Of a stretch of DNA of 44,439 nt, positions 29,564-35,012 are shown piece by piece (within the stretch, counting starts at the first letter, position 1; the number at the start of each line of letters is the position of its first letter). The notes beneath the pieces are model-generated. The model did no database searches. It saw nothing but the letters and a program-made list of their open reading frames with translations, and was not told the DNA's origin. Origin of the DNA: Acidobacteriota bacterium (lineage in GTDB: Bacteria > Acidobacteriota > Terriglobia > Terriglobales > Acidobacteriaceae); contig JAFAWX010000422.1 in NCBI GenBank assembly GCA_019241535.1, positions 1 through 44,439 of the forward strand, read 5' to 3'. A program made the translations under genes and the position numbers.

Positions 29564-30775
29564 ATGGCTGAGAGAGCTAGAGTGACCCGCTTATTGGTTT
29601 TCCTTGCTTCGATCGCGCTCCTCCAAACTGCGGTCGCGGCGACGATCAGCACCCGCCCGCTCTCTTCGAACCGCAGTCGGTCGCGCACGGTGACGGAAAA
29701 TCCGCGCGCGCGCCGGCATATAAGGCACTTGGCTCGCAGCCGGGTTGTGCGCGGGCATATCCTCACTTCCCGGAAGCGTCATCATTATTACGAGCGTTTC
29801 TCAACCAGCTCTTATGCCACCGACATCACCGACGGGGATGCGACTGGTGGCGAGGACCCAGTGGTGCGCCAGGCGGCGATTGACGCCCTCGGCAATATGA
29901 ATGGCACGGTGGTAGCCATCGAGCCGACCAGCGGCCGCATACTGGCCATGGTTGATCAGAAGCTCGCGCTCTCAAGCGGCGCACAGCCTTGCTCGACAAT
30001 CAAGGTCGCGGTGGCGCTCGCAGCGTTGCGCGAGGGAATCATCACCAAGGAAACCGAAGTTCGCCTCGGCGGCCGCAGCCACATGAATCTCACGCTCGCA
30101 CTCGCGCACTCGAACAATGCCTATTTTGAGGCGCTGGGGCGCCGCCTGGGGTTTGAGCGCGTCGCTTATTACGCACACCAGTACGGGCTCGGCGAGCTGG
30201 CCGGATATCACATTGCGGGCGAGAAGGCCGGCATCTATCCGCCGGAGGAGATCTCCGCCAGGCTCGGCGGCGTCGGTAAGATGTGCTCGTTTGGCGAAGG
30301 GATTTCGATGACCCCGCTCGAGCTGGGTGCCCTGGTAGCGGCCCTTGCTAACGGCGGCACGCTTTATTACCTGCAGCACCCGACGACCGCCGCGGAAGTC
30401 GCCAATTTTCAGCCCATGGTGAAGCGGCATCTGGATATTGCCGGCCTAATACCGGAAGTTTCCGACGGAATGGCAGGCGCCGTGAACTACGGTACCGCCC
30501 GCAGCCTGCGAGTGAATTTCAACCAGGAAGAGGTACTCGGCAAGACCGGAACCTGCTCCCATGCAGGCACCCGCTTCGGCTGGTTTGCAAGTTATGCCAA
30601 TACCAGCTACGGCAGGGTAGTGGTGGTTGTATTTCTTGAAGGTGGCCGGCCGACGTTTGGCCCCAAGGCGGCCCAGATTGCGGGGCGGATGTACCGCAAT
30701 TTGTACGACCACGATTTCTTTGCCGCACGGCCGGCGGTCACGCCCGACATTCGCACCGCCAGCAGCTCGAACTAA
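29564..30775 (+). CDS. Penicillin-binding transpeptidase-domain protein
   Basis: Predicted peptidoglycan D,D-transpeptidase or related serine enzyme, 403 residues. An N-terminal membrane or signal segment (LLVFLASIALLQTAVAA) is followed by a very basic, Arg/Ser/His-rich region (residues ~30-80) that could bind wall polymers. The penicillin-binding domain then shows all three motifs: STIK with the nucleophilic Ser near residue 144, SNN near 183, and KTGT near 327. It lacks the long dimerisation domain of class B PBPs, so it may be a compact PBP or a relative of class D beta-lactamases. Its place downstream of ftsQAZ suggests septal wall work. Confidence 0.85.
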   Translation: MAERARVTRLLVFLASIALLQTAVAATISTRPLSSNRSRSRTVTENPRARRHIRHLARSRVVRGHILTSRKRHHYYERFSTSSYATDITDGDATGGEDPVVRQAAIDALGNMNGTVVAIEPTSGRILAMVDQKLALSSGAQPCSTIKVAVALAALREGIITKETEVRLGGRSHMNLTLALAHSNNAYFEALGRRLGFERVAYYAHQYGLGELAGYHIAGEKAGIYPPEEISARLGGVGKMCSFGEGISMTPLELGALVAALANGGTLYYLQHPTTAAEVANFQPMVKRHLDIAGLIPEVSDGMAGAVNYGTARSLRVNFNQEEVLGKTGTCSHAGTRFGWFASYANTSYGRVVVVVFLEGGRPTFGPKAAQIAGRMYRNLYDHDFFAARPAVTPDIRTASSSN

Positions 30776-30786
30776 TCAACAAGGCG

Positions 30787-30807
30787 CGTCCTGGGTTTTC
30801 CAGGACG
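30787..30807. terminator. Hairpin at the convergent end of the transpeptidase gene
   Basis: A perfect 8-bp stem (CGTCCTGG/CCAGGACG) with a GTTTT loop lies 11 bases after the transpeptidase stop. The T-run is weak on both strands, so termination efficiency is uncertain. Confidence 0.5.
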
Positions 30808-30836
30808 TAAGCGGGCATGAGTTGGCGTGTGGGAAA

Positions 30837-30863
30837 GTAGGCCGCGAGAGGCGCGCGGCCTAC
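30837..30863 (-). terminator. Terminator-like hairpin of the Gly-rich secreted protein gene
   Basis: A perfect 10-bp stem (GTAGGCCGCG/CGCGGCCTAC) with a seven-base loop, followed on the minus strand by TTTCCC, lies 14 bases after the gene at 30878-31345. Confidence 0.6.
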
Positions 30864-30877
30864 CCCGAGCGTTGCAG

Positions 30878-31345
30878 TTAAGGGGTTGTGACCATCGCGG
30901 TACTCTGCTCCGTGCACTGCCCCATGTGTTTCTTCACCGAGGTGACTGCAAGCTCGTCTATTCCGCCCGTGTCCTTCGACTTTTTCCCAAGCACGCTGAG
31001 GTGCTCGCCGGGCGTCAGCGGCTCGCCCGCCAGCTGGAACGTCTTCTTCCCGCTGTCGGTCTTGAGCGACTTTCCGTCCGGGGCCACGCAGCCGACGACT
31101 TGCGCCTGCGCGTGGCGGCGGTGGAGGGCATAGAAGAGCAATCCGGCTCCGGCCGCGCCGCCCACCGCGGCTCCGATCTTTGCCCCGTTGCCATAGCTGC
31201 GCGAGCCGGGATTGTACGTGCCACCCGACGCGCTTCCCATTCCACCGCCACCGCCTCCGCCATATTGCGCCCATGCCGATCCCGAGATCGCCAGGGCAAC
31301 CGCAACCGCCAGTACCGCCTTCGTTACTCGCCTAGAATTCGTCAT
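30878..31345 (-). CDS. Secreted glycine-rich protein with glycine-zipper segment
   Basis: A 155-residue protein with a signal peptide (VLAVAVALAISGSAWAQ). A Gly/Ser/Tyr-rich linker comes next, with seven consecutive glycines, and then a glycine-zipper-like hydrophobic stretch (IGAAVGGAAGAGLLFYAL) that may insert into a membrane. The C-terminal ~85 residues contain two Cys and strands such as VVGCVAPDGKSL and LSVLGKKSKDTGGIDELAV, which could form a small beta domain. The internal ATG at 31345 has GGAGG upstream; the longer frame to 31462 is not convincing. Function is unknown. It converges on the transpeptidase gene. Confidence 0.75.
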   Translation of the reverse strand: MTNSRRVTKAVLAVAVALAISGSAWAQYGGGGGGGMGSASGGTYNPGSRSYGNGAKIGAAVGGAAGAGLLFYALHRRHAQAQVVGCVAPDGKSLKTDSGKKTFQLAGEPLTPGEHLSVLGKKSKDTGGIDELAVTSVKKHMGQCTEQSTAMVTTP

Positions 31346-31657
31346 TTTGCTTCCTCCACCCTTAGGATTTTCTCTTTGCGACTCAGGAGCCAACAGGCAG
31401 GCCTGGCAATCAAGCTCAGGATTCTGTTTTCTCACTGACTCCGGCGAGCATAACGGTGACAAAGGGGAATGTTGTCAGCGTGCTGTAAAGTGGCAGTCAA
31501 ATTTCAATCAGGAACGTGACGCGGGGTCAAAGCTCGATGCGCGGGCGACGGAAATGAGCGTCCTTGTCGTAATATCGACCAGCGAGTGGAGGAGCTGTGA
31601 AGAATATTCTGGCGTGTCCAGCGATGACGAGTTTCAGAAGGGCGTGTCAGGCTGAGG
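31346..31657. other. Intergenic stretch without visible gene
   Basis: This gap lies between the Gly-rich protein gene and the micro-protein gene, both on the minus strand. Open frames here have no SD or recognisable composition. The promoter of the Gly-rich protein gene is expected here, but I could not place it. Confidence 0.35.
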
Positions 31658-31777
31658 CTAGGCTGATTTCTTCTCGGGCACGGGAAACTGGAGGAGCTTA
31701 CCGCGTTCCTCCGCAGGAATCCATTTCGCAATTTTGCGGAAGTTGTCCGGCACATAGAACTCGATTAGTTTTGCCAC
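31658..31777 (-). CDS. 39-residue micro-protein of the AKLIEFY...KKSA type
   Basis: A short frame starts at GTG 31777 and ends at TAG 31658-31660. It begins VAKLIEFYVP, continues through NFRKIAKWIP and ends FPVPEKKSA. GGGAG lies seven bases before the GTG. From memory, similar 38-40 residue proteins (AKLIEFY, FRK, KW, P, RGK, FP, KKSA) are found in multiple copies in Acidobacteriota genomes, but I cannot confirm this here. It is basic with a Pro/Trp centre and has no membrane segment. Its role is unknown; it would be missed by length cut-offs. Confidence 0.6.
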   Translation of the reverse strand: MAKLIEFYVPDNFRKIAKWIPAEERGKLLQFPVPEKKSA

Positions 31778-32103
31778 ACTACCACTCCCAGCCGCATTGA
31801 CAGCGGATGTGCTCGCCGAGAGTCGGTTTCCTGAGTATCCGCCGACATACCGCGCAACAGCGCATCCACATAGCCCCTGCTCCGTTTCACGGGAAAGCCT
31901 TCACGTCAACCCGCTACATAGTTTGACGCACAATAAATTCCCCGAGATTCATGCTGCTGTTAAGTGTTTGTCAAAGCCTTGTTGTCGGGAGCGCACAAGC
32001 ACAGGCGCTTGGCGGCCGTAGGGATCTGGCGCTGAAGGCTGGCAAGGGGAAGCGAATGGTTGCCGGCCAATGCCTGAACCGAAGTCGAGGAGCCTAGAGC
32101 GGT
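31778..32103. other. Intergenic stretch without visible gene
   Basis: I see no supported gene or repeat between the micro-protein and the ABC ATPase. The permease expected beside a MacB/LolD-type ATPase is not here. Confidence 0.4.
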
Positions 32104-32847
32104 CTATTTTTTGATTTCGTCGCGCTCGACCAAGCCATCCTTTATATGAATGACCCGATGAGCGTACGCGGCGATGTCGTGCTCGTGGGTTACGAGCACG
32201 ATGGTATTGCCCTGGGCGTGGAGACGGTCAAAAAGGGCCATGATCTCATTGCCAGTCTGCGAGTCGAGGTTGCCGGTGGGTTCATCGGCAAGAATAATCG
32301 AAGGACGATTGACCAGGGCACGGGCGATGGCGACACGCTGGCGCTGCCCCCCGGAGAGTTCGTTCGGCCGGTGGTTCATGCGCTCCTCCATCCCGACCGA
32401 GGCCAGGGAGGCCTTGGCACGCTCGGCTCGCTCGGCCGCCGGCACGCCGCCATAGATGAGGGGGAGTTCGACGTTGTGCAGGGAGGTGGCGCGGGCAAGA
32501 AGATTGAAGGTTTGAAAAACAAATCCGATTTCTTTATTCCGGATGCGGGCAAGCTCATCGTCGTCGAGATCGCTCACCAGCTGCCCGTTCAGCCAGTACT
32601 GACCGGCACTGGGGCTGTCGAGGCAGCCGATCAGATTCATCAGCGTGGATTTTCCCGATCCCGACGGACCCATGATGGCGACATATTCATTGCGCCGGAT
32701 TTTCAGATTCACCCCGCGTAAGGCATGTACCTGCTGCTCCGAGCCCATGTCGTAGGTCTTCCACAGATTCTGGGTAGAAATCATCGAGGAATCGGGCGCG
32801 CTCGAGGGCTCCGATTGTGGAATGCTGATTACTTCTGCGGTTGCCAT
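32104..32847 (-). CDS. ABC transporter ATP-binding protein (MacB/LolD type)
   Basis: A 247-residue nucleotide-binding subunit. The Walker A motif GPSGSGKST lies near residue 59, the Q-loop in FVFQTFNLL, the signature [15 protein letters not shown] near 160, Walker [13 protein letters not shown] near 180, and the H-loop Thr-His in [15 protein letters not shown] and the sequence [11 protein letters not shown] are typical of the MacB/LolD/FtsE-like group, which drives lipoprotein release, export or periplasmic mechanotransmission. About 20 extra N-terminal residues rich in Ser/Pro precede the domain. No permease is adjacent, so it is an orphan here. ATG 32847 has GGGAG about nine bases upstream. 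Confidence 0.92.
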
Positions 32848-33263
32848 CGTCGGTTTCTCCCGCTCCCCTTGTAACACCTGACTCCCGGCTCGCTTGGCTT
32901 GGACGGACCAGCGGGGCGTTGGTTATCGTCCGGCGCCCTGGTGCTCGGCTTGAGCCCGCCAGCTTAGATACGAGCGCCTCGGGGTAAAAGTTCGATTCCC
33001 GGGAGGCTGAGCGCGTGCGGCCATGGCGATTATATCTTGTCAGAGTGAGGCCCGGCGGCGGTGGTGGGTGCCTGGGCGGGAACCCGGATCTGCTCCTTGC
33101 AAGCTTTTACAAACCTGGACAACCTTCAACCGCTGGCGGGAATCTCCCCCTGTAGGATGCGCATGAGCTTGCGGGTTACAACCCGGCTCCCTCGCTTGTA
33201 TTCCCCCTTTCAAAGACATAAAATATTGGCACTTGAAGTGTGTCTGAAGGAGCGCTCGGCGAT
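32848..33263. other. Divergent control region of the ABC ATPase and GWxTD genes
   Basis: This 416-base gap holds a promoter for the GWxTD gene (reported separately) and, by position, one for the ABC gene. A GC-rich stretch near 32970-33010 with GTTCGATTC resembles a tRNA T-loop by chance only. I find no convincing ORF. Confidence 0.4.
33196..33224 (+). promoter_or_regulatory. Sigma70-type promoter of the GWxTD gene
   Basis: TTGTAT (33196-33201), a 17-base spacer and TAAAAT (33219-33224) lie 39 bases before ATG 33264. The predicted transcription start near 33231 precedes both candidate start codons. Confidence 0.55.
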
Positions 33264-35012
33264 ATGTTCCGTGCCGCATTACTTGGCCGCATAGTTCCTC
33301 CATTTGTGCTGTGCCTGGCCCTCGCGCTAGGGTCTCCGGCCGGCGCCGATGACAGCAAGCAGAAGCCGGCGTCAGACCAGAGTGCGGCGGACCAGACCAA
33401 AGCCGACCAGGTGCCCGCTCAGACGGGAGATCCGTTGAAGCGGCCGATTTCGGAGAAGCGGAAGAAAGAGAACGCTAAGTCTCTGAAGCGAGAACTCAGC
33501 CGGGAGCACCGCAAGTGGCTCGACGAGGACGTGCGCTGGATCATCACCGACGACGAGCGCAAGGCCTTCATGCAACTCTCAAATGATGAAGAGCGGGATA
33601 AGTTTATCGAGGCGTTCTGGGACCGGCGGAATCCTAATCCCGACAGCGAAGACAACGAATTCAAAGACGAGCACTACCGCCGCATCGAATACGCCAACGA
33701 GCACTACGCCGCGGGAATCCCGGGATGGAAGACTGACCGCGGGCGAATTTACATAATGTATGGTCCGGCCGATGAGGTCGAGTCTCATCCGAGCGGCGGC
33801 AGCTACGAGCGTCCCATGGACGAGGGTGGCGGTGAGACCTCAACGTATCCCTTTGAAGACTGGCGCTACCGGTATCTCGAGGGCATCGGCCAGGAGGTCA
33901 TCATCGAGTTCGTAGACACCTGCATGTGCGGCGAGTACCACATGACCATGGATCGCAGCGAGAAAGACGCGCTGCTGATGGTTCCAAATGCCGGTCTGAC
34001 TCTGTACGAGCAGATGGGGATGGCGCAGAAGTCGCAACGTTTCAATGGCGGCCTTGAACGCCTCGGCCTGGGGCCGGTAGGTTCAACCGATCTTCAGAGC
34101 AAGGAATTTGACCGGCTGGAGCAGTACGCGAAGCTGAACCGCGCACCGGCGGTAAAGTTCAAGGACCTCGAGGAAGTCATCGGTCACAAGATTACCTATA
34201 ATCCCCTGCCTTTTGACGTGCGCACGGACTTTATCAAGATCACCAGTGAAACTGTCCTGGTCCCGGTAACGGTCCAAATTCGCAACCGTGACATCACGTT
34301 CAACAACAAGGAAGGTGTTCAGCACGGGGTGGTGAATATCTTCGGCCGCCTGACAACCCTCTCAGGGAAAGTAGCGCAGACTTTCGAAGATACGGTGGCC
34401 GCCGATGTTCCCGCCGAACTGCTCGCCCGGGAGACCGAGAATAACAAAATCTACTGGAAGGCAGTGCCTCTGCGACCAGGCCGCTACAAGCTCGACGTCG
34501 TGGTCAAAGACGTGAACGGCGACCGCATGGGCACTTTCAGCCGGGGCCTCATCGTACCGGACTTCTCAGAAGAGAAGCTGACGAATTCTTCTCTCATTGT
34601 GGCCGACGACGTCGAGCCGGTGCCGACCAATAGCGTGGGCACGGGCATGTTTGTGATCGGAACGACGAAGGTGCGTCCGCGCGTAGCCTCGGGCGACGGC
34701 AAGCCGGCACTTTTCAAACGTGGGCAGAAAGTTAATTTCTGGATGCAGGTCTATAATCTCAGCGTGGACGAGAAGACCCATAAGCCATCGGCCACCTTTG
34801 AGTACGATATCGTGAATGCCGCCACCAATAAGCCGGTGGTGCATGCCGTGGATTCCTCTGAAAAGATGGGCAACATCGGCGAGCAGGTCACGTTGCAAAA
34901 GGCGGTCGCGGCCCGCAATCTCGATCCCGGCATCTACCGTATTCAGATTAAGGTAAGCGACAACATTTCCAAGCAGACGATCGATCCCTCGGCGACCTTT
35001 GCCGTCGAGTAA
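33264..35012 (+). CDS. GWxTD domain-containing secreted protein
   Basis: A 582-residue exported protein. It has a signal peptide (LGRIVPPFVLCLALALGSPAGA) and a charged, Gln/Lys-rich linker. The GWxTD domain (about 75-250) begins with KWLDEDVRWIITDDERKAF and contains FWDRRNPNP and GRIYIMYGPADEVESH. The remaining ~330 residues hold two or three beta-sandwich-like parts without catalytic motifs. GWxTD proteins are frequent in Acidobacteriota and Bacteroidota; their molecular role is not established. The internal ATG 33264 is preferred over GTG 33240 because AAGGAG falls 11 bases before it. The beta-barrel gene follows after 18 bases, so the two are probably co-transcribed. Confidence 0.9.
   Translation: MFRAALLGRIVPPFVLCLALALGSPAGADDSKQKPASDQSAADQTKADQVPAQTGDPLKRPISEKRKKENAKSLKRELSREHRKWLDEDVRWIITDDERKAFMQLSNDEERDKFIEAFWDRRNPNPDSEDNEFKDEHYRRIEYANEHYAAGIPGWKTDRGRIYIMYGPADEVESHPSGGSYERPMDEGGGETSTYPFEDWRYRYLEGIGQEVIIEFVDTCMCGEYHMTMDRSEKDALLMVPNAGLTLYEQMGMAQKSQRFNGGLERLGLGPVGSTDLQSKEFDRLEQYAKLNRAPAVKFKDLEEVIGHKITYNPLPFDVRTDFIKITSETVLVPVTVQIRNRDITFNNKEGVQHGVVNIFGRLTTLSGKVAQTFEDTVAADVPAELLARETENNKIYWKAVPLRPGRYKLDVVVKDVNGDRMGTFSRGLIVPDFSEEKLTNSSLIVADDVEPVPTNSVGTGMFVIGTTKVRPRVASGDGKPALFKRGQKVNFWMQVYNLSVDEKTHKPSATFEYDIVNAATNKPVVHAVDSSEKMGNIGEQVTLQKAVAARNLDPGIYRIQIKVSDNISKQTIDPSATFAVE

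Follow-up and report, generated by a model that had tools for sequence, protein, structure and literature searches.

The window (the whole stretch of 44,439 nucleotides analysed here) contains on its minus strand a real two-gene micro-operon, composed of a 30-codon gene followed by a 39-codon gene, both recognised by homology and dN/dS and named here family A3 and family A2, respectively. The A3 gene (31779..31871) begins with ATG, stops at a TAG (31779-31781) and encodes a zinc-ribbon-like protein, MWMRCCAVCRRILRKPTLGEHIRCQCGWEW, with the pattern CxxC...CxCGW. The A2 gene (31658..31777) starts with GTG at 31777, extends over 39 codons to a TAG at 31658-31660 and encodes the micro-protein MAKLIEFYVPDNFRKIAKWIPAEERGKLLQFPVPEKKSA; a single base separates the A3 stop from this GTG. 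Read from the sequence, a Shine-Dalgarno motif GGGAG (31785..31789, minus strand) lies 7 nt 5' of the GTG and inside the W-E-W codons at the end of A3, a location which suggests that translation of A2 may be coupled to that of A3. An earlier note on this DNA had reported the 39-codon frame with its GTG start and a good Shine-Dalgarno; the frame is exactly where it placed it, on the minus strand, and the Shine-Dalgarno is confirmed. The zinc-ribbon-like partner, upstream and just outside the interval considered there, had been missed, as had a box before the two genes made of a 20-bp direct repeat with an 11-bp period (TTTGACAAACA CTTAACAGC, 31956..31975, minus strand, 84 nt before the A3 start), a repeat inside the A2 protein and fusions between the two families.

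Because 55 ORFs of at least 35 aa overlap the surrounding 4.5 kb, a short ORF is by itself no evidence of a gene, and it is the homologues in relatives that raise the A2 frame above chance level: matches were found in 8 of 40 relatives besides the window's own genome, with E values down to 2e-13. The dN/dS of the copies, which the earlier note had proposed as a check, was computed only on those copies that have 37-41 residues and a terminal A (85 sequences, 30 disjoint pairs) and amounts, pooled, to 0.231 in frame and to 1.42 and 1.28 in the other two frames. A2 codes for protein and is under purifying selection, and it almost certainly belongs to a genuine family. The reading of this locus as a chance ORF, or as a conserved RNA element giving no protein, draws on the shortness of the frame and on the fact that an undescribed RNA would be absent from Rfam (a search of 30700-33300 gave no RNA family match); against frame-specific purifying selection and conserved starts, lengths and stops, we consider its probability negligible. 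The earlier note had also envisaged that homologues might occur only as the tail of a longer protein. In the 38 loci retrieved with a strict peptide pattern the protein begins at the same Met, with upstream in-frame extensions ranging from 1 to 106 codons; since starts and lengths are conserved and these extensions are not, A2 is not such a tail. The idea of a portable KKSA tail attached to other proteins was rejected as well: across 14 genomes, a tail-only search (18 positions and low power, from an alignment with one mistyped row) recovered family members and two zinc-ribbon fusions, and every other match had an E value of 0.05 or worse.

As far as we searched, the A2 family is confined to Acidobacteriota, and its strong matches are confined to the GTDB family of the window. 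In this family, 60 of 398 sampled genomes and 22 of 79 genera have homologues, with 1-7 matches each (threshold E<=1e-4), copy numbers being possibly too low because only the best candidates of each genome were scored. Among 396 genomes sampled over the phylum, strong matches were again restricted to the same GTDB family (G000 and G285), and three weak ones from other families (G040, G123 and G321, E 0.002-0.009) were not counted as members. The 38 loci of the strict peptide pattern, which was run over genome contigs, all come from entries titled Acidobacteriota MAGs, and four assemblies have three or four of them. The statement that this sequence recurs in Acidobacteriota is thus borne out. 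The further proposal of a lineage-wide multi-copy family stands for copy number, 33 of the 60 positive genomes having 2-7 matches (the two of G627 being halves of one copy), and falls for lineage-wide occurrence, given the restriction of strong matches to one GTDB family. Nor does the multi-copy description suit the window's own genome, which has one copy; seven of the eight genomes of its genus (own included) have one match each.

No match to the A2 family was found in Pfam, PHROGs or PDB sequences, and NCBIfam, searched for the window's 39-residue protein only, returned only a match at chance level (E 0.21). The median net charge is +5 (84 sequences), in agreement with the basic micro-protein family previously suggested. 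A2 is a real, unnamed small-protein family which is not described in the family databases searched, and neither of the peptides MAKVIEFY and MWMRSCAVC appears in the collection of papers searched. Since the usual gene finders go down to 90 nt, some A2 copies may be annotated as hypothetical. One family member used as query matched none of 72,556 plasmid or 50,697 phage records, and a scan of viral contigs yielded no confirmed A2 relative; the hypothesis of a phage or plasmid gene was rejected on these results.

In the A2 chain, two copies of the motif (A/G)K[VIL]IEF lie 24 residues apart, and the protein of the window ends in KKSA. This internal repeat beats shuffled sequences at p<=0.05 in 56 of 84 sequences, namely those of the 114 match rows that have 37-41 aa and end in A. 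The last residues are [KR][KR]SA in 68 of these 84 (KKSA 47, RKSA 15, KRSA 6), the invariance of the final A being partly due to the way the set was chosen. A few copies among the 114 rows are broken. Some subgroups keep the N-terminal core MAKLIEF...RGKVIEF with another conserved tail, which resembles STLSRTATP in L161, L166, L170 and L176 (around 4000) and PTWIFPEVDADLSLREG in L171, L177, L178 and L180. The AlphaFold2 model of the 39-residue protein is poor (pLDDT 74, pTM 0.19, no secondary structure) and Foldseek found no PDB fold match with it. We infer that the protein may be a peptide that is bivalent and forms strands, or else one component of an oligomer.

The A3 gene is likewise under purifying selection, with a pooled dN/dS of 0.116 (13 pairs from 29 sequences, among them solo and fused copies) and values of 1.92-1.95 in shifted frames. 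All four Cys, forming the CxxC and CxC pairs, are invariant in the seven aligned rows, decayed copies having lost some of them. Such a set of four conserved Cys is that of a general zinc ribbon or knuckle, and we therefore predict, with good confidence, that the 30-residue protein binds zinc; it is probably a nucleic-acid- or protein-binding protein. Its assignment to Pfam Zn_ribbon_RPAB4 (PF03604) was rejected, as a convincing match is lacking in the members: one of seven sequences matches at E 0.0015 and the other six do not at E<=1. The sole PDB match of the family, a transposase ribbon at E 4.9, is at chance level, and the AlphaFold2 model is poor, with a pLDDT of 56 and a pTM of 0.23. In an order-wide sample, 18 of 249 genomes have A3 matches, all of them from the window's GTDB family (the family make-up of this sample being shown partly). 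Three distant relatives were seen on IMG/VR contigs (L278, 133-225; L279, 3001-3093; L280, 3001-3087; e.g. MWMRCCARCGRLLYKRHLNDRTICMTCGWIW). Solo A3 copies also lie ahead of genes read, by their sequence, as PilZ, STAS, receiver-domain and RlmB-like; those of L260, L261 and L265 are upstream of STAS-like and PilZ-like genes.

The association of the two families was surveyed upstream of 114 distinct A2 match rows, in which the frameshifted L051 is counted twice and two fusions are included (113 copies once merged). A member of the A3 family is present in 28 rows, on the same strand and with its start 267 to 36 nt upstream of A2; we class 17 of these partners as intact (window included), nine as decayed or partial and two as fused. 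The other 86 rows have no recognisable A3 partner, a few being too close to a contig end to be judged. At the genome level, 27 of the 30 genomes with a strong A3 match (E<1e-10) also have an A2 match (E<=1e-4), versus 33 of the 368 others, in a tally which is uncorrected for kinship, in which the G658 match is a fragment, and for which two 398-genome samples are taken as one set because their handles coincide. Moreover, in four loci (L097, L103, L109 and L156) the A3 frame runs on into the second half of the A2 protein, with tails such as RGKLIAFPAPTKKSA that all end in TKKSA. For nine distinct A3 copies a fused tail is absent and no A2 gene follows over the next 1.5 kb; pairing is therefore not obligatory. 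We regard a functional pairing of the two proteins as likely.

The box of the window shows no mismatch to the repeat pattern, which was itself drawn up from these sites, and its held-out score of 20.3 is equalled in 0 of 752 control stretches. With a matrix derived from nine sites, more than 16 bits were obtained in 12 of 111 copies (two others, whose upstream sequence is shorter than 400 nt, being omitted) and in none of 744 control stretches. An A3 partner accompanies eleven of these twelve copies, and L158, the remaining one, seems to be frameshifted; among the 16 intact pairs scanned, nine have the box and seven do not. When the site itself was left out (for L019, L023 and L024, the whole group), all seven micro-operon promoters scored 15.1-27.2, above all 752 controls (maxima 14.3-15.3), with a thin margin for L019 and L163 and with a matrix built from these same loci. 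Genome-wide, in 12 genomes, the pattern is only weakly enriched, with 50 matches (five being micro-operons) versus 27 for the reversed pattern. A scan for promoters and terminators gave nothing convincing. Elsewhere, the box precedes a gene read as a ferritin-like secreted protein (L240, L247 at 1500 and L259 at 768; genomes G453, G549 and G581), which could possibly share a regulon with the micro-operon, and it lies between genes read as serA and a TIG-like lipoprotein in L243, L246 and L248 (around 1500; genomes G002, G003 and G480).

With two direct repeat units and an 11-nt period, the box resembles the sites of OmpR/PhoB-type response regulators and can be proposed as a candidate operator. 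Two 11-nt units also define PHO boxes (PMC4415409), and a control by phosphate starvation (Pho regulon) was considered on the strength of this resemblance. It was rejected after comparison with 15 pstS-family loci from 11 of the 12 genomes, since the pstS promoters carry different repeats; only an OmpR/PhoB-type site is claimed here for this reason. Unlike the box TTTGACAATCA-AATGACAAC, seven of the 15 pstS-family loci have TGTAAC, whereas four loci from the window's genus have repeats of another form, also unlike the micro-operon box. Just before the gene, the best box scores are about 10-12 in four pstS loci and lower in the rest, versus held-out scores of 15-27 for the micro-operons; isolated hits reaching 15.4-16.6 bits are present at other positions of the pstS loci. 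A repeat of the type TTCAC-N6-TGTAAC-N5-T(G/T)TAA(C/T)A precedes pstS in L215, L217, L218, L220, L221, L224 and L225, and in these Acidobacteria the PHO box proper may be this TGTAAC-type repeat.

No neighbour is common to the A2 copies, whose subgroups have their own contexts. Fifty-three of the 113 copies fall into 15 groups sharing at least two neighbour gene families, a pattern suggestive of ancient, scattered paralogues that have stayed where they are, and not of a moving element; the family consists of diverged paralogues spread over different chromosomal contexts. Pfam domains were tallied in the nearest genes (110 of 113 copies) and in genes at a distance above 2.5 kb (89 of 113), both lists including shadow ORFs (as in the window entry) and orthologous neighbours counted repeatedly. 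Receivers were found in 6/110 near versus 5/89 far and sigma-70 region 2 in six near versus three far, and sigma-54 activation domains, found in 5/110 near, are not in the far top 25. A function deduced from neighbours was rejected, as there is no clear excess of regulators near the A2 copies. A tree of 106 rows and 39 columns is largely unresolved; on it, the partner label changes 13 times versus 24.1 in shuffles.

The explanation that we favour, with a probability of about 40%, is that the two micro-proteins interact and are regulated as a pair. The A3 and A2 genes would be co-transcribed from a promoter whose 11-bp repeat is bound by an OmpR/PhoB-type response regulator, and A2 translation would be coupled to A3 translation. 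The A3 protein would be a minimal zinc ribbon folded around a single zinc ion. A2, with little fold of its own, would present two KVIEF strands and a basic KKSA end, which would dock by strand addition, either on the ribbon or on a target common to both proteins. In responses to nutrients or stress, the two together might then serve as a small adaptor with a regulatory role, their target being RNA, DNA, polymerase or a signalling protein; A2 copies without partner would keep the docking function only. This adaptor or regulator mechanism is put forward tentatively. More speculative still, and somewhat doubtful as a whole, is the view of an undescribed regulatory module, in which 30- and 39-residue proteins, encoded one base apart, would form a minimal zinc-dependent complex under response-regulator control and the 39-residue part would be reused alone, at many other loci, as a bivalent strand-docking adaptor, with occasional fusion of the two into a single protein.

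Other arrangements can be imagined for the same genes. The A3 protein could do the work by itself, as a zinc-dependent nucleic-acid-binding protein (a minimal Com- or RPAB4-type ribbon), A2 being independent and merely co-regulated. The solo copies upstream of genes read as PilZ, STAS and receiver-domain proteins and the relatives on three viral contigs are in line with this, but the strong co-occurrence in genomes and the four fusions make it unlikely. The one-base gap and the Shine-Dalgarno inside A3 would equally suit a regulatory leader (uORF) setting the translation of A2, the sole product in that case, and in the L038/L039/L141 group the upstream ORF lacks some Cys while the A2 gene persists. 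Such a leader is quite improbable, however, in view of the low A3 dN/dS and its invariant CxxC/CxCGW, of the solo copies before unrelated genes and of the fusions into one protein. Finally, small adjacent genes, patchy presence in 60 of 398 genomes with up to seven matches each, and decayed and fused copies recall a toxin-antitoxin-like or other selfish two-gene module. Yet A2 mostly stands without partner (86 of 114 rows), its positions are kept across genomes (the 15 groups above), and neither a plasmid or phage match (one query) nor a confirmed A2 relative on viral contigs was obtained, so that we give this reading very little credit. A toxin-antitoxin module in the strict sense was rejected, obligate pairing being contradicted by a partner in 28 of 114 rows only.

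The A2 family is defined, under selection and multi-copy; it has conserved motifs and comes with a partner gene, with fusions and with a promoter element, so that its function is directly testable, in a cultivable relative or by reconstituting two synthetic peptides. Many soils are rich in Acidobacteriota, a phylum whose small proteins have received little study. Considering known systems, the CxxC ... C-x-C-G pattern and the very small, basic ribbon of A3 recall PF03604 Zn_ribbon_RPAB4 (RNA polymerase 7 kDa subunit), from which it differs by its length of only 30 aa, by CxC in place of CxxC in the second half and by its WxW end. The zinc ribbon of phage Mu Com is also a very small basic ribbon with CxxC ... 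C-x-C-G, like the A3 protein. In the GMSC small-protein catalogue, whose main text does not contain the word Acidobacteri- (PMC11364881), most conserved small-protein families are described as having no Pfam domain, and the A2 family resembles this majority in having none.
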